From Methanosarcina barkeri MS (GTDB taxonomy: Archaea > Halobacteriota > Methanosarcinia > Methanosarcinales > Methanosarcinaceae): 64,000 nucleotides of DNA. The stretch is taken from the NCBI RefSeq assembly GCF_000970025.1, contig NZ_CP009528.1, positions 3,955,168-4,019,167 of the forward strand. The letters are read 5' to 3'. Of this stretch, positions 51,112-57,020 are shown in pieces (position 1 is the stretch's first letter; each line of letters starts with the position of its first letter). A program made the position numbers and the translations under genes. The notes beneath the pieces were generated by a model that was given only the letters and a program-made list of their open reading frames with translations, was not told the origin of the DNA and ran no database searches.

Positions 51112-51486
51112 ATGACAAAAATTGCTATACCATCGATGAATGACAGTGGATTGGAATCTGATGTTTGTTATCATTATGGCTCATGCGAATATTTTACTAT
51201 CGTGGATGTAAAAAATAAAAATATTGAAAGTGTTAAAACAATAAGCAACCTGTCTCCTGAGATCGAGCATAATTGCGCTGCTCCATCAAAAATTTTGGAA
51301 TCAAATAATGTCAATGCTGTGCTCGTCGCGGGTATTGGCGGAAGGCCATTAATGTCATTGGCGGAAAAAAACATCAAAGTATTTGCAGGAATAACGGGTA
51401 AGGTTTCCAACGCAGTTGAGGACTATAATAATGGCTTGTTGCAAGAATTATCTATGAACGGCACCTGTAATTGTTCTCATCACTAA
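51112..51486 (+). CDS. NifX/NifB-type dinitrogenase iron-molybdenum cofactor domain protein
   Basis: 124 residues. IAIPSMNDSGLESDVCYHYGSCEYFTIVD is the usual beginning, and VLVAGIGGRPLMSLAEKNIKVFAG the core of the NifX/VnfY family (Nitro_FeMo-Co, PF02579). These bind metal clusters; small archaeal members are carriers or chaperones for iron-sulfur or Fe-Mo cofactors. The tail CNCSHH could also bind metal. GGAAGTG lies before ATG. First of three close genes on the plus strand (then DUF4405, DUF169). Confidence 0.88.
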   Translation: MTKIAIPSMNDSGLESDVCYHYGSCEYFTIVDVKNKNIESVKTISNLSPEIEHNCAAPSKILESNNVNAVLVAGIGGRPLMSLAEKNIKVFAGITGKVSNAVEDYNNGLLQELSMNGTCNCSHH

Positions 51487-51544
51487 AGGACTTAATTCAC
51501 AATGTTTGAGAGCTTGAATCAGGGCTATCTAACGAGGTGAAACC

Positions 51545-51859
51545 GTAAGCCGACAAGAAACCAATTACTTAATAGACCTTATTCTGACAACTCTATTTTT
51601 TGTTGTTGCAGGTACAGGTTTAGTTATGCATTTTTTAATACCTTCAGGAATTCCAAGAGGGCAGTATGTAGTATATATGGGATTAACGAAAGCTACCTGT
51701 ATTTGGATACACAGCAAAGCAGGAATCCTGATAGTTATTCTTATAGTTGTCCATCTTATCCTGCATGGTCAATGGATCATATGTACCACAAAGAAATTTT
51801 TCAGAAAAGGAAAGAAAAACACTATTTGTGAGACCAATACAGTGACCGATAAAGTCTGA
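51545..51859 (+). CDS. DUF4405-like membrane protein, start codon uncertain
   Basis: The ATG at 51626 gives 77 residues, but the frame is open to 51537 and encodes SRQETNYLIDLILTTLFFVV and then AGTGLVMHFLIPSGIPRG, the expected first helix of the family. No ATG, GTG or TTG is in frame; GTA at 51545 follows AGGTGA by 5 bases and may be a mutated GTG/ATG. With the second helix (IHSKAGILIVILIVVHLILHGQWI, heme-type His pair) it would be two-helix, 104 residues. DUF4405 proteins resemble the membrane anchors of cytochrome b-type proteins. Confidence 0.65.
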   Translation, partial: VSRQETNYLIDLILTTLFFVVAGTGLVMHFLIPSGIPRGQYVVYMGLTKATCIWIHSKAGILIVILIVVHLILHGQWIICTTKKFFRKGKKNTICETNTVTDKV

Positions 51860-51903
51860 TAAGAAAACTTTTTAAAGATAATATAAAAATTGGAGTTGAG
51901 AAC

Positions 51904-52593
51904 ATGGATGTAAAAGAGATCAATAAATATGGACAAGAACTTGTAGACTGTCTGAAACTGAAGACTTCTCCTGTTGCAGTAAAGCTGATCCCAAAAGGAG
52001 GAGAAATTCCTGAAGGAATGAAAGAAGTGGATGAAGCTATGAGGCACTGCCAGCTGGTTGACAGAGTTAGAAGAACAGGCGAGGAGTTCTATACCCTTAT
52101 CGATGACCAGATGTGTAAAGGTGGCGCTGGTGCAATGGGCCTTGGTGAAATGCCTCCAAAGGTCGCAAGTGGAGAATTTTATTTTAATAAACTCAAACAG
52201 TTTAGCACCCAGGGCGCTGCAAGGCGTACCCTTGAAAGAGTTCCCAAGCTTCCACCGCACTCAACCGAAGCTATCCTGTACTCTCCTCTGGAAAAAGCCA
52301 CTTTTACTCCAGATGTTGTTGTCGTTATCAGTAATCCTAAACAAATAATGCTACTTACACAGGCTGCAATGTACAAAACCGGAGGCAGGATCGAAGCGAG
52401 TTTTGCAGGAAAGCAGAGCCTGTGCTCCGACGGGGTTGTGAATGTATACAAAGAAGGCAAAATCGGAGTCACAGTCGGTTGCAGCGGCAGCAGGACATAC
52501 TCCAAAATCGCAGACGAAGAAATGATTATGGGAATTCCCATTGAACTTCTGGCTGATGTAACTGCTGGTCTTAAGGAAATCTGCCCGAAATAA
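51904..52593 (+). CDS. DUF169 domain protein
   Basis: 229 residues. DUF169 members share the N-terminus (LVDCLKLKTSPVAVKLIP), a CxxC-like pair around MRHCQL and MCKGGAGAMGLG, and SFAGKQSLCSDGVVNVYKEG with GVTVGCSGSRTYSKI near the end. Function unknown; cysteines are conserved and metal or cofactor binding is likely. GGAG lies 9 bases before the ATG. Third gene of a plus-strand group with NifX-like and DUF4405-like genes (spacing 45-60 bases), then a MITE-like element. Confidence 0.9.
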   Translation: MDVKEINKYGQELVDCLKLKTSPVAVKLIPKGGEIPEGMKEVDEAMRHCQLVDRVRRTGEEFYTLIDDQMCKGGAGAMGLGEMPPKVASGEFYFNKLKQFSTQGAARRTLERVPKLPPHSTEAILYSPLEKATFTPDVVVVISNPKQIMLLTQAAMYKTGGRIEASFAGKQSLCSDGVVNVYKEGKIGVTVGCSGSRTYSKIADEEMIMGIPIELLADVTAGLKEICPK

Positions 52594-52814: not shown

Positions 52815-52935
52815 ATCTTCAAGTAAGCATTAATTCATGCCAGTCCTTTCATGAAACTATGTTTTAATAATAATAATAATAATAATATTAGAATAATATC
52901 AAAAACAAGATTTTCCATAAGTGTTTACCTGCAGG

Positions 52936-53007
52936 AAATCAATAGTTTGAAGGAAATCAATAGTTTGAAGGAAATCAATAGTTTGAAGGAAATCAATAGT
53001 TTGATTT
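52936..53007. repeat. 18-bp tandem repeat, four copies
   Basis: Unit GAAATCAATAGTTTGAAG, four nearly identical copies. In frame it would read KEINSL repeats, but there is no other sign of coding. Confidence 0.85.
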
Positions 53008-53211
53008 TCGTTCTGATTAATAAAATAAATAAGATTCTGTTTTTGAGAGATTCAGTAAGTAAAAATGTATATAGCCATGATGTTATAAAAGAAAAATAGG
53101 TTAATTAATCTTTAAGCAACTTTCCTGGGTACACATATCAGTTTTAGAATATGTAAGAAGACAATTTACTTTATTTTTAACCTGAGCTAAAACAAAGCCT
53201 TTTTGGAGTTA

Positions 53212-53607
53212 TTAACTCTCAAAAGGTACAAGGTACACACCATCTGCTCTTTTTTGCCCTTTTAACAGCTCACAATGCCTCATAATAGCAAACTGGTTCT
53301 CGGTTTCCAGAAGGGATATTTGAAACTTTTTTGCAATTTCTTCCTTTCTTGCTCCACCGCTGGAGACGATAAATTCATAGATGGCTTTTTGTAATTCAGT
53401 CAGACCCTCTGTACCTTCAAGCCCGGCTTCCTTCCGGAAGAATTTCTTGGAATAAGCTGCCCAGGGATCACAGACCTGAATTTTGTGGTGAGCTTCTATA
53501 AAACAATCTTCACAGAAAACCTTGCCTTCCTCTTCTATGCAATCTTCTTTTTCCAGTTCACATCCACAAATGTGGCATTTTACAGGATTAGTTATCTCGT
53601 CGGTCAA
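53212..53607 (-). CDS. Zinc-finger/HTH regulator-like protein (short paralogue)
   Basis: 131 residues. A treble-clef-like zinc finger (CHICGCELEKEDCIEEEGKVFCEDCFIEAHH) at 11-43 and a C-terminal winged helix (IYEFIVSSGGARKEEIAKKFQISLLETENQFAIMRHCELLKG). The same two parts in the same order form residues 70-198 of the 54008-54604 product, which has an extra N-terminal HTH. Likely a DNA-binding regulator with a metal or redox-sensing finger. It ends the group; the AhpD-like gene lies 17 bases upstream on the same strand. Confidence 0.7.
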   Translation of the reverse strand: MTDEITNPVKCHICGCELEKEDCIEEEGKVFCEDCFIEAHHKIQVCDPWAAYSKKFFRKEAGLEGTEGLTELQKAIYEFIVSSGGARKEEIAKKFQISLLETENQFAIMRHCELLKGQKRADGVYLVPFES

Positions 53608-53624
53608 TATTTCACCTCAGTTCT

Positions 53625-53954
53625 TTAAACATTCAATTCATCCAGAATTTTAAGAACCACCACAGATCCATACGCTACTGCAGGCCCACCAGCCATTACT
53701 ATGGCAGTACTGACAGCCTCAAGGATCTCCTCACGAGTTGCTCCCAAACGTACAGCTTCAGGAACATGCTTCCATAGACAGTATTCACAACGCAGAGATA
53801 CTGCAACTGCAACCATCATGAGTTCTTTTGTTCTGGCACTTAATGCTCCATCCTTAATAACTTCAGAATGGAGCCCAGAGAGTGCATCCATTACTTTTGG
53901 AAGTTGTTCAGCCATAACTTTTGTCTTTTCATTCATGTCAATTCTTTCTGTCAA
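53625..53954 (-). CDS. Carboxymuconolactone decarboxylase family (AhpD-like) protein
   Basis: 109 residues, all-helical AhpD fold. The redox cysteine is seen in VSLRCEYCLWKHVPEAVRLGATREEILEAVSTA, which is CxxC-H as in AhpD. It probably transfers electrons in peroxide or nitrosative stress defence, or acts as a thiol-disulfide relay. It lies between two related zinc-finger/HTH genes on the same strand (53 and 17 bases away), suggesting shared transcription and that the regulators respond to its redox state. Confidence 0.9.
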   Translation of the reverse strand: MTERIDMNEKTKVMAEQLPKVMDALSGLHSEVIKDGALSARTKELMMVAVAVSLRCEYCLWKHVPEAVRLGATREEILEAVSTAIVMAGGPAVAYGSVVVLKILDELNV

Positions 53955-54007
53955 GATTTCACTTCCTCAACAGAGATATTTTTATAGTAAGTTAATTTTA
54001 TAATAAG

Positions 54008-54604
54008 TTAAGAATCAAAAGGCACAATACAGATTTCATCTCCTATCTTCCGCCATTTCACAAGCTCACAGTGCCTTAATATTGCAAGCTGGTTCCTAGC
54101 TTCCTGGGGTGTAAGCCCAAAAAGTTTAGAGATTTTTTCAGGCGTAACCCCTCCTTCTACCTGTATAAATTTATAAAGTTCTTTTTGAATGTCTGTTAGA
54201 CCTTCTGTGCCTTCCAGACCATGATTTTTTCTAAAGAGTTTTTTAGAACGTACAGCCATAGGATCTGCAAACTTGATTCTCTGGTGCTCTTCCAGATAGC
54301 AGTCCTCACATATTGACTTTCCATTTTCTAGAATATACTCATTACCAGGAATTTCCTTCCCGCACACAGGACATGTTACAAAGTAGGAAATACTTTGATC
54401 GAGTTCCCGATTGCCAGATTTATTCGTTTTTACCAAGCCGTGAAACTCCAGATAACTAACAATTTCGTATACTGTTGACCTGGATAATCCATATCTTGCT
54501 TTTGCTTTTTTTATAACGTCTCGAACATGGAACCCGCAATCTATATGGGCTTCTTTTATGCATTCAATAATCCAGGTTTCTTCTTCGTCAAGTACAAGTT
54601 TCAT
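54008..54604 (-). CDS. HTH / zinc-finger / HTH regulator-like protein
   Basis: 198 residues. N-terminal winged helix (IIECIKEAHIDCGFHVRDVIKKAKARYGLSRSTVYEIVSYLEFHGLV, 13-60), then zinc finger (CPVCGKEIPGNEYILENGKSICEDCYLEEHQ, 74-104), then a second winged helix (LYKFIQVEGGVTPEKISKLFGLTPQEARNQLAILRHCELVK). Likely regulator of its own group; the finger may sense metal or redox. Upstream lies the divergent PadR gene with an array of palindromic half-sites between. I do not know a named family. Confidence 0.72.
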   Translation of the reverse strand: MKLVLDEEETWIIECIKEAHIDCGFHVRDVIKKAKARYGLSRSTVYEIVSYLEFHGLVKTNKSGNRELDQSISYFVTCPVCGKEIPGNEYILENGKSICEDCYLEEHQRIKFADPMAVRSKKLFRKNHGLEGTEGLTDIQKELYKFIQVEGGVTPEKISKLFGLTPQEARNQLAILRHCELVKWRKIGDEICIVPFDS

Positions 54605-55018
54605 CGAATTCTCCCGCCAGACAACAAAAACACGGGGTTTCAGACATTACAGAAGGTTTTAGACTTTCCCTTTTTACTAAGGCAAATCTTTGAATTTTAT
54701 TTTTCTTATAAAATATGTCTCTCTATATTAATAGAGATAATAGAATATTAAGTTATCGGTATCTATATATAGTTGATTTCTTTTCTTAAAAGAGAATAAC
54801 AGAATAGGAGAATAAAACTCAAGTTTAAAGCAGAAAGCATATATACAAAAACATCTTAGTGTAAGTTACACTTTGATGTAATTAATATCATGATGTAATT
54901 AGTATCTTAGTGTAATTAATATCTTAGTGTAATTAACACCTAGATATTGTCTGAATATAAATCGAACTGCTATAAAACTAAAATCTCCAATCCCCTAAAA
55001 AGAATCAAACGTGTTGTT
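54605..55018. other. Divergent promoter region with repeat operators
   Basis: Contains TATA-like CTATATATAG near 54765 for the minus-strand gene, the operator array (54858-54940) and TATA-like GAATATAAATCG near 54952 for the PadR gene. Confidence 0.6.
54858..54940 (+). promoter_or_regulatory. Palindrome and repeated half-sites upstream of the PadR gene
   Basis: AGTGTAA-G-TTACACT at 54858-54872 is a perfect palindrome. It is followed by four half-site-like copies of (GA/TA)GTGTAATTA at about 17-base spacing: GATGTAATTAATATC, GATGTAATTAGTATC, TTAGTGTAATTAATATC, TTAGTGTAATTAACACC. The layout suggests cooperative binding by PadR or by the zinc-finger regulator. Confidence 0.5.
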
Positions 55019-55354
55019 ATGCCCAGAAACACATACTTCCGTCATACACCTTCATTTATACTGCTCTTCCTGGCACAGAAATCCGCTTATGGAGCCCTTT
55101 TATTCAAGAGACTTGACAAAGAAATGCCTTTCAATCTGATAGATACTCCTGCGCTCTATAGGGCACTTAACGATCTGGAAAAAGAGGGAGCAGTTGAAGC
55201 ATACTGGGACACTTCAGAACCAGGCCCAGCAAAAAAATGGTATAAGATAACCCAAAAAGGAATCGAAAAGTTGGGTGAACTCAAGCAGGATATTGAAAGG
55301 AGAAAAAGAGACCTGGATTTTTTCCTGGAAACTTACGAAAAGTTACAAAACTGA
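55019..55354 (+). CDS. PadR family transcriptional regulator
   Basis: About 111 residues from ATG at 55019 (MPRNTYFRHTP); the open frame to 54947 is not supported. Winged helix with the PadR pattern: SAYGALLFKRL, PALYRALNDLEKEGAVEAYW and AKKWYKITQKG, then a C-terminal helix for dimerisation. Represses transport genes in response to small molecules. Followed directly by two half-permease genes in the same direction, so it most likely controls them. Confidence 0.9.
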   Translation: MPRNTYFRHTPSFILLFLAQKSAYGALLFKRLDKEMPFNLIDTPALYRALNDLEKEGAVEAYWDTSEPGPAKKWYKITQKGIEKLGELKQDIERRKRDLDFFLETYEKLQN

Positions 55355-55394: not shown

Positions 55395-55871
55395 CTGAAC
55401 AGTACATACTTTTATGCTTTAGCATTTATTTTCCTTACCGTTTCTTACTTGAAGGATAAGAAAAGAACAAAAATCGCTCTCCTGAAAGCCTGGAAATCTT
55501 TTTCAGGTATTCTCCCGGAAATCCTTTCAGTTATGATGTTTGCAGGAATTACCCTAGCAATCTTAAGTCCAGATATTATATCAAAGCTTATAGGCTCCAA
55601 TTCAGGCTTCTTCGGGGTAGTTCTCTCGCTAACAGCAGGATCCATTACAATGATTCCGGGTTTTGTTGCTTTTCCGCTTGGGGCTACCCTTCTTGATGCC
55701 GGAGCAGGATACGCACAGATTGCAGCCTTTGTTTCTTCCCTTATGGCAGTAGGAGTTGTAACCCTGCCTCTGGAGATCAAGTATTTCAGCAAACGTATGG
55801 CAATTCTGAGAAATGCATCTGCACTGGTAATATCTTTAGTCTTCACAATGGTGATCTGGAAGTTGATGTAA
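55395..55871 (+). CDS. Permease half, ArsP/DUF318-like (N-terminal half)
   Basis: About 158 residues if the CTG at 55395 is used; 140 from TTG at 55449. The longer version adds NSTYFYALAFIFLTVSYLKDKK, which is the normal N-terminal helix of the family, and GGAGGGG lies 5 bases before the CTG. No ATG is in frame. The core is KAWKSFSGILPEILSVM, ISKLIGSNSGFFGVVLSLTAGSITMIPGFVAFPLGATLLDAGAGYAQIAAF: the family motif with a conserved PGF. Likely one half of a two-subunit efflux permease with the next gene. Confidence 0.75.
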   Translation: MNSTYFYALAFIFLTVSYLKDKKRTKIALLKAWKSFSGILPEILSVMMFAGITLAILSPDIISKLIGSNSGFFGVVLSLTAGSITMIPGFVAFPLGATLLDAGAGYAQIAAFVSSLMAVGVVTLPLEIKYFSKRMAILRNASALVISLVFTMVIWKLM

Positions 55872-55873
55872 TA

Positions 55874-56542
55874 ATGAACACTGACATCAATGCTGACAGT
55901 ATGAACACCGGTCTCGAAAACCCGAATATGAAATCCATACGTTCCAGCATGAACTCAGGGAGGCTAACTGCCAGATCAGAAAATAGGAGTATAAAAACGA
56001 GAGCATTTGCCGTAGTAAAAAAATTCAGGTTTGTAATAGTCTTTGCTTTTGTTATAATAGCCTTATACTTTACAGACAAAACTGAAGGCATAAAGGCCTT
56101 CAATATATCCTTATCAAATATGAAGGAAATGCTCGGCCTGATTCCTCCTATTTTCGTCCTCATGGGCTTGCTGGATGCCTGGGTTCCTAAAGAGACTTTT
56201 ATTAGGTATATGGGGGAAGCTTCGGGACTTAAAGGAGTGCTTACAGCTCTATTTCTGGGTTCTGCTGCCGCTGGTCCCCTTTATATTGCCTTTCCCATTG
56301 CAATGCTCCTTATAAAGAAAAAGGCAAAACTGGCGTATGTTTTGTTTTTCCTGGGAGTATGGTCCACTGCAAAACTTCCCCTTTTATTGTATGAGATTTC
56401 ATATATGGGAGCCAGGTTCACGGCAATTCGGATAGCAGTATGCGTTCCACTATTTCTTCTCTTTTCTCTTATAATCGAAAAAACATTCTCAGCAGAAGAA
56501 AAAGAATCTCTTGGTAGGAAAGCTGAATCCGAATTTTCCTGA
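55874..56542 (+). CDS. Permease half, ArsP/DUF318-like (C-terminal half)
   Basis: 222 residues with a hydrophilic N-terminus of 45 residues, then about five helices. LIPPIFVLMGLLDAWVPKETFIRYMGEASGLKGVLTALFLGSAAAGPLYIAFPIAMLLIKK is the permease repeat of the ArsP/YraQ-like family. Starts two bases after the stop of the previous gene. With the first half it would form an efflux pump; arsenic organics or other metal species are possible substrates, but this is inference from family only. Confidence 0.8.
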   Translation: MNTDINADSMNTGLENPNMKSIRSSMNSGRLTARSENRSIKTRAFAVVKKFRFVIVFAFVIIALYFTDKTEGIKAFNISLSNMKEMLGLIPPIFVLMGLLDAWVPKETFIRYMGEASGLKGVLTALFLGSAAAGPLYIAFPIAMLLIKKKAKLAYVLFFLGVWSTAKLPLLLYEISYMGARFTAIRIAVCVPLFLLFSLIIEKTFSAEEKESLGRKAESEFS

Positions 56543-56553
56543 AAGATTCTAAT

Positions 56554-56883
56554 TCAAACCCTGCAATCGCACCCTCTTTCTTTAAGGAGCCGGACCTGTT
56601 CTTCATAAGAATCCACAAACTCGTCCTGAACAGCTTTTCCTGTCGCAAGGGCAGGGTCAAGAGGAGTGTGGTGTTTGTAACCTCGTCTTGTCATTTCCTC
56701 GACCAGAGCTTCATGCCTCAGGTAGAGCGCTTTGAGCTTTCCCCTCCAGCGCATGGTCTCTGGATGGTGTGCATAGGCTTTCTTGTTATTGGTAATTATA
56801 GACCAGAGAGCATGTAACTCACGGTGTTCCCCTAGAAGATGCTGCCTGCACATCTTCTCAGGAGGTATGTCCCAGATTCTCAT
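56554..56883 (-). CDS. Pyrimidine dimer DNA glycosylase/endonuclease V-like protein
   Basis: About 109 residues from MRIWDIPPEK (56883), since family members start this way; the frame to 56943 has no support. T4 endonuclease V fold: MCRQHLLGEHRELHALWSII (the conserved H-L-x-x-E-H-R-E-L-H), RWRGKLKALYLRHEALVEEMTRRGYKHHTPLDP. Cleaves the glycosyl bond at UV-induced cyclobutane dimers and nicks the strand. Lies near the photolyase gene (59504), so two pathways for UV damage are in one neighbourhood. Confidence 0.82.
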   Translation of the reverse strand: MRIWDIPPEKMCRQHLLGEHRELHALWSIITNNKKAYAHHPETMRWRGKLKALYLRHEALVEEMTRRGYKHHTPLDPALATGKAVQDEFVDSYEEQVRLLKERGCDCRV

Positions 56884-57020
56884 AAGATGAATTCCTGGCA
56901 CATCTAAGAAAGGTTTATCGGAGAAGAAGAGTTTACTTAACACGAAAATTAATACCTATGTTCTATGTCTGATTCTTTATTCTTATACATATTTACATAC
57001 TATTTGAGAAAACATAGTCC

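Follow-up and report, generated by a model that had tools for sequence, protein, structure and literature searches.

Methanosarcina barkeri MS carries a compact three-gene operon which may be an autoregulated thiol/redox-stress regulatory operon, with a separate role for each product; this reading is plausible and is held tentatively. Two of the genes encode a paralogous pair of Cys4-finger/winged-helix proteins, here called long and short. Gene order and promoter are conserved, and CxxC redox proteins recur as neighbours of the family. We infer DNA binding, sensing and pairing of long and short. Oxygen sensing in strict anaerobes such as methanogens is poorly known. The operon is a compact, testable candidate redox regulator in Methanosarcina, and mutating a single cysteine would settle the matter. 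It also draws attention to a finger-winged-helix family common to archaea and anaerobic bacteria. The window (the whole stretch of 64,000 nucleotides that was analysed) contains the genes as follows.

54008-54604, minus strand: long, 198 aa, first gene in transcription order.
53625-53954, minus strand: CMD/AhpD-like CxxCxxxH gene, 109 aa, second in transcription order.
53212-53607, minus strand: short, 131 aa, third in transcription order; it has a Cys4 finger, a fifth conserved cysteine (C46, in CDPWA) and a winged helix.

A gap of 53 bp separates long from the AhpD-like gene, and one of 17 bp lies between the AhpD-like gene and short. Short aligns without gaps over 131 aa with the last 131 residues of long, at 48% identity (E 1e-43). 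An earlier note, made from the letters of this DNA, had described two paralogues enclosing an AhpD-like gene on the same strand at close spacing; the alignment bears out the paralogy, and the reading frames and gaps confirm the layout. Short starts with TTG, and a Shine-Dalgarno-like GAGGTG lies immediately 5' of this codon. The AhpD-like gene also starts with TTG and has an in-frame ATG six codons later. Comparing the operon genes with those of L003, L006 and L015, the AhpD-like gene of L006 being left out, gave eight pairwise dN/dS ratios of 0.09-0.15.

Matches to the operon are present in 24 of the 59 relatives' genomes searched, window included. According to the open reading frames of the fetched loci, long, AhpD-like and short occur in order in 16 of these 24, again window included; the other 15 have a long which is 59-99% identical to that of the window. 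In a seventeenth triad (G014, locus L025), the open frame of short begins with none of ATG, GTG and TTG. Decayed or partial copies of the operon are found in other genomes, and in L012, L014 and L027 long is present with no AhpD-like or short ORF in the stretch examined. The order is thus decayed or partial in several Methanosarcina genomes, as might be expected if three unrelated genes were adjacent in this genus by chance. Such a chance neighbourhood is very unlikely, however, given that the order is kept in 16 genomes over this range of divergence, and that AhpD-short pairs also occur in 8/23 loci of other methanogens. The genome of the window has 12 PF02627 matches (one below the cut-off, two in one frame), so that adjacency of an AhpD by chance would be rare.

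Two loci depart from this pattern. L018 (1399-1965) has a long-type finger fused to a short-type C-terminus, and no AhpD-like ORF was found in the locus; the gene reads as if long and short had recombined. In L015, short (708-1100) is 95% identical to that of the window (dS 0.24), and the long of that operon has a dS of 1.16; perhaps short alone was transferred or converted.

The core common to short and long consists of CxxC-x17-CxxC, then a helix, then a winged helix. At E 0.001, a profile of this core has matches in 88 of 392 genomes from the phylum, in many cases across the finger only. The 48 named loci, most of which are metagenome-assembled, were grouped by hand: 17 are of Methanosarcinaceae type, 23 belong to other methanogens (mostly Methanothrix), one to Bathyarchaeota and seven to bacteria (four Chloroflexota, a Deltaproteobacterium, a Syntrophaceae and a Desulfosporosinus). 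Loci L001-L030 and L031-L078 share some genomes, and their counts are not additive. The N-terminal domain of long (profile A4) is found in 17 of the 59 relatives, each time at the position of the long gene. Among 25 additional selected genomes it is found in the five that belong to the same family and in none of the 20 core-carrying genomes outside it. In a tree rooted on bacteria, the long forms make one clade (94/88, just under the firm-support mark), which nests with short forms of Methanosarcinaceae and some Methanotrichaceae. Seven rows which were fragments or mis-picked domains (L031 long, L032 long, L041 short, L064 twice, L067 and L076) were left out before the tree and a census of its 54 rows. 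Because the N-terminal domain is found only with long, and the long clade lies inside the short forms, long most likely arose from short by duplication and gain of an N-terminal winged helix. Short is probably the widespread, older form, with members in Methanothrix and in some bacteria. It may modulate long, as the earlier note suggested, but its wide occurrence without long means that this cannot be its main purpose.

The middle gene is a member of the CMD/AhpD superfamily. It scores 72.6 bits against PF02627 (cut-off 23) and 46.5 bits against TIGR00778 (cut-off 27.8), it matches PDB 5dik at E 2.5e-17, and its translation contains CEYCLWKH, a CxxCxxxH motif. AhpD proper (TIGR00777) was rejected as an identity for it, at 19.2 bits vs a cut-off of 191.95. 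In 21 of the 48 named loci, short is immediately preceded by an AhpD-like open frame, one of these frames being cut by a contig end. By group these are 13/17 Methanosarcinaceae-type loci and 8/23 other methanogen loci, so that the linkage of the AhpD-like gene, on which the earlier note had set store, is indeed found elsewhere. Further tblastn matches to AhpD are located at the same place upstream of short in L037, L038, L058 and L067. There is no AhpD near short in the eight bacterial and bathyarchaeal loci; in total, 27/48 loci are without an AhpD open frame by short, including 15 of the 23 other methanogen loci. The linked AhpDs of Methanosarcina and those of Methanothrix are clearly separate subfamilies (99/97 and 100/99), and the join between them is weak (91/71) in a short alignment; this AhpD tree has few columns and several long branches, and its rows L180, L185 and L187, labelled 'free', are linked copies (window, G326 and G008). 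The Methanothrix subfamily occurs away from short in some genomes.

Other redox genes also accompany the family. All four Chloroflexota loci (L070, L072, L074 and L076) have a thioredoxin gene on the same strand as the solo form, 0.4-1.1 kb downstream of its start; all four are above the PF00085 cut-off, that of L072 being cut by a contig end. Neighbour clustering, which took in 36 of the 48 named loci, gave an Fe/Mn superoxide dismutase cluster (one member Pfam-checked) 0.9-5.6 kb downstream of short in 8/23 other methanogen loci. Of the redox or metal stress suggested in the earlier note, the redox part is strengthened by the AhpD-like genes of the other methanogens and by the thioredoxins of Chloroflexota.

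Long has four structural elements:

Residues about 7-68 of long: N-terminal winged helix (AlphaFold2 model).
Residues 75-107 of long: Cys4 finger (AlphaFold2 model).
Residues 115-127 of long: linker helix.
Residues 138-195 of long: C-terminal winged helix (AlphaFold2 model).

The AlphaFold2 model is confident (mean pLDDT 90.3, pTM 0.63) and has the order winged helix, Cys4 finger, winged helix. The HTH-zinc-HTH order and the extra N-terminal winged helix of the larger paralogue, both predicted from the letters, are visible in it, and the predicted C-terminal winged helix is seen both in the model and in an alignment with CadC (VIA-align; Z 10.1, rmsd 2.8 over 73 residues). CzrA and SmtB are close behind CadC, and the domain also aligns with many ArsR/MarR regulators; the VIA-align rows cover mainly residues 123-198 of long and hardly any of the N-terminal fold. 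A sequence search for a solved structure of the N-terminal domain gave none, the best E being 0.36. Profile searches support the finger and winged helices in part: they recur in the family at E 0.05, but the window proteins remain below the curated cut-offs, and no Pfam or NCBIfam model exceeds its cut-off in short or long of the window. The LIM profile (PF00412) matches the finger at E 0.0011 and 0.0028 in the window proteins; it is matched over profile positions 28-57 of 58 only, with 19.6 bits for short and 18.3 for long vs a cut-off of 22.9. With Pfam profiles, LIM matches are found in 35/47 family members at E 0.05 (best 8e-06). The finger of short and long is thus half a LIM-type site, and falls short of the LIM domain family itself. 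TrmB (PF01978) matches the N-terminal winged helix of long with 24.9 bits (E 1.8e-05; cut-off 25.6). It appears at E 0.05 in 30/47 members (best 8.8e-09), where either winged helix could be the one matched.

The likeness to CadC raises the question of a metal sensor. The finger and fifth cysteine would then bind Zn, Cd or another thiophilic metal, the ArsR-like winged helix would be released from DNA as in CadC and CzrA, and the AhpD-like gene would be a downstream detoxification gene. Besides the ranking of CadC, CzrA and SmtB, this is favoured by the presence of metal-cofactor genes near the solo form (NifX-like in L071; DUF134 and NUBPL in L077), by the PadR and ArsP-like permease genes adjoining the operon, and by a one-mismatch copy of the promoter motif before a PF01497 transporter gene in L143. 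Long also scores 26.2 bits against HTH_metalloreg (NF033788, ArsR/SmtB metalloregulators), but this is far below the cut-off of 55 and places long outside that family. The fold is common to many non-metal regulators, and it is CxxC redox proteins that recur as partners in methanogens and in Chloroflexota; a metal sensor is therefore considered unlikely.

Cysteines distinguish the two forms. In alignment A2, whose 47 rows were picked by hand, the four finger cysteines are present in 47/47 rows. The fifth position is Cys in 23/23 short or solo rows and in 0/24 long rows (Ala in 23, Arg in one); the five-cysteine pattern likewise is found in 43/43 short and 0/11 long forms among the 54 tree rows. 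Long instead has Cys15 in helix 1, which is invariant in 24/24 long rows of A2. The model of short is weaker than that of long (mean pLDDT 77.8), and the stretch around the fifth cysteine, residues 42-52, is below 50. The fifth cysteine is kept in bacterial and bathyarchaeal loci without AhpD; it is thus independent of AhpD, and AhpD cannot be the sole reductant of this residue. In Chloroflexota, thioredoxin may be the reductant.

Helix 3 (NQFAILRHCEL) of the C-terminal winged-helix domain hardly varies between Chloroflexota and Methanosarcina. Such constancy fits a fixed partner better than a drifting operator, and it argues for a purely structural finger: long would be an ordinary lineage-specific autoregulated repressor, short a conserved housekeeping factor which binds nucleic acid or protein, and the AhpD linkage no more than co-expression. 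The many loci without an AhpD open frame agree with this, as do genes adjoining short in some Methanotrichaceae which resemble scpA/scpB. However, different CxxC redox neighbours recur, and the fifth cysteine has a clean pattern of gain and loss. This explanation is thus regarded as somewhat unlikely.

Under the redox reading, short would be the ancestral family member and a cysteine-based sensor. Oxidation of its fifth cysteine would change or open the finger, and binding via the shared C-terminal half would be altered. Long, which is without this cysteine, would be the DNA-anchored partner; it would bind DNA via its N-terminal winged helix and, by analogy with MsvR, control its own promoter at TATCGATA by the TATA-like stretch. 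Its helix-1 cysteine could be a second sensor. The AhpD-like protein (thioredoxin in Chloroflexota) would remove the oxidant or re-reduce the disulfides, closing the loop. The reading is based on the triad order, the CxxC neighbours, the superoxide dismutase, the five-cysteine pattern, the promoter block and the presence of SurR, Fur and PerR in the Foldseek list. Against it are the bacterial and bathyarchaeal loci and the majority of other methanogen loci which have no AhpD, an unenriched promoter motif, the metal-cofactor genes of L071 and L077, and low TM-scores.

A more elaborate version is improbable: short would keep a five-cysteine redox finger, and long would have traded the fifth cysteine for a DNA-binding winged helix with a cysteine of its own. 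The duplicated sensors, with their cysteines split in this way, would form mixed dimers via the shared C-terminal half at the operon promoter, and the CxxC enzyme encoded between them would be a dedicated reset. They would belong to an unnamed archaeal-bacterial family of thiol sensors, partnered by AhpD-like proteins in methanogens and by thioredoxin in Chloroflexota.

Known redox regulators resemble long in part. SurR has a CxxC redox switch in its N-terminal DNA-binding domain. Unlike SurR, long lacks a CxxC in this position, its N-terminal winged helix having an invariant C15 and a variable C23, and has a Cys4 finger between its domains, which sets it outside the SurR type. SurR of Pyrococcus furiosus (PF0095, PDB 2quf) is the first Foldseek match of the whole long model (E 4.9e-4, 191 alignment columns), followed by Fur, TFIIIC and PerR chains; whole-model TM-scores are low (0.27 with SurR), so there is at most domain-by-domain similarity. 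The likeness to Fur/PerR lies in a winged helix followed by a Cys4 site. Unlike these, long has a second winged helix after the finger, and it scores 12.9 bits against the FUR profile (PF01475; cut-off 23.1), outside Fur/PerR; that profile matches 4/47 family members at E 0.05 (best 0.0016). OxsR of Haloferax volcanii is a TrmB-family thiol regulator, and the N-terminal winged helix of long is TrmB-like just below the cut-off; with its 123 aa, OxsR has one winged helix only, and C15 of long is not equated with its C24. In the available part of PMC9426492, SurR is described as an ArsR-family archaeal regulator which senses redox through cysteines, MsvR and SurR as the two archaeal redox-switch transcription factors identified before OxsR, and OxsR as relying on a single conserved cysteine, C24, with a motif situated upstream of BRE/TATA. 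The available part of PMC3729527 describes MsvR (Methanosarcina acetivorans, Methanothermobacter) as a methanogen redox regulator with boxes at its own promoter, which overlap BRE/TATA in Methanothermobacter. Unlike MsvR, long and short have no V4R among the Pfam matches listed at E up to 1 (the best 25 of 29 families for long, three for short), and are thus placed outside MsvR. In the literature searched, which left most subscription journals outside, none of the titles and abstract openings listed dealt with the operon or the family; the mention of carboxymuconolactone in the available part of PMC1242214 concerns a table of rare-amino-acid predictions.

For autoregulation at BRE/TATA there is a precedent in MsvR, and for a site lying upstream of these elements there is one in OxsR. 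The upstream region of long has the following elements:

54753-54771, minus strand: conserved promoter element TATATATAGATACCGATAA (consensus TATATATA..TATCGATAA in the family), immediately followed by an A/T-rich TATA-like stretch.
54716-54727, minus strand: conserved TATAGAGAGACA, putative transcription start, some 110-120 nt 5' of the long ATG.

Conservation points to a promoter of the operon's own at 54716-54771, and transcription likely starts at TATAGAGAGACA. The order is TATATATA, TATCGATAA and the A/T-rich TATA-like stretch; TAGAGAGAC follows after roughly 25-30 bp. Upstream regions were aligned for 17 of the 20 full-length long loci (L005, L017 and L027 were left out). The best 15-column promoter block has 1.53 bits per column vs an alignment mean of 0.48, a mean lowered by gappy columns; the start-codon block is nearly as conserved (1.32 bits per column), and common descent contributes to the conservation of the promoter too. 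The conserved promoter also precedes the solo long copies L012 and L014. In L017, which is from another genus, a GAGAGA block is present with no clear TATCGATAA. The motif of the operon is A/T-rich vs the CG-rich motif of OxsR, and the MsvR box, TTCGTAN4TACGAA, differs from TATCGATA.

The TATATATAGATACCGATAA element is the sole zero-mismatch match in the genome, and TATAGAGAGACA also has a single match. Genome-wide, the promoter motif shows no enrichment: at up to two mismatches it has 100 matches, and the reversed motif used as a control has 104. The block could therefore be a plain core promoter. It may be a candidate binding site for long or just a strong core promoter. Six one-mismatch sites are present. 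One of them, in L143 (1500-2802), lies 168 bp before a Peripla_BP_2 gene (PF01497), presumably of a family of iron/cobalamin binding proteins; the distance at long is 167 bp. The L143 site is without the TAGAGAGAC block, and it is possibly a single second target of the operon regulator, judging from this spacing. The other five sites have no comparable arrangement; L142, L144 and L145 have ORFs up to 350 bp downstream.

An array of TTAGTGTAA-type units is located at 54858-54940, upstream of a PadR-family gene (54947-55354). The array had been proposed as a DNA target of the two regulators. Such units lie upstream of padR in 5/5 padR loci inspected (L001, L002, L015, L016 and L026), and the array is thus probably a PadR operator and unlikely to be a target of long. 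The units of L026 occupy 1010-1039, which places them some 460-490 bases away from the long start and just before the conserved part of the padR frame. A lone TTAGTGTAA is found upstream of long in L003 and L005, with no padR found in the 1.5 kb examined, which counts against a strict tie to padR. Taken together, the array most likely belongs to the neighbouring PadR gene.

Next to PadR lie two half-size permease genes in adjacent ORFs (55449-56542), which share the ArsP_1 permease profile (PF03773) between them; the first corresponds to the C-terminal half, below the cut-off, and the second to the N-terminal half, above it. A pyrimidine-dimer DNA glycosylase (PF03013) is encoded at 56554-56943, and a homologue is located upstream of long in 10/48 named loci. 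Beyond short, 51112-52593 contains NifX-like and DUF169 genes; a NifX-like gene is also found near the solo form in L071 (by Pfam) and L077 (by neighbour cluster). Four tandem copies of approximately GGAAATCAATAGTTTGAA, seen by eye, lie at 52930-53010 in a small ORF reading SLKEINSLKEIN.
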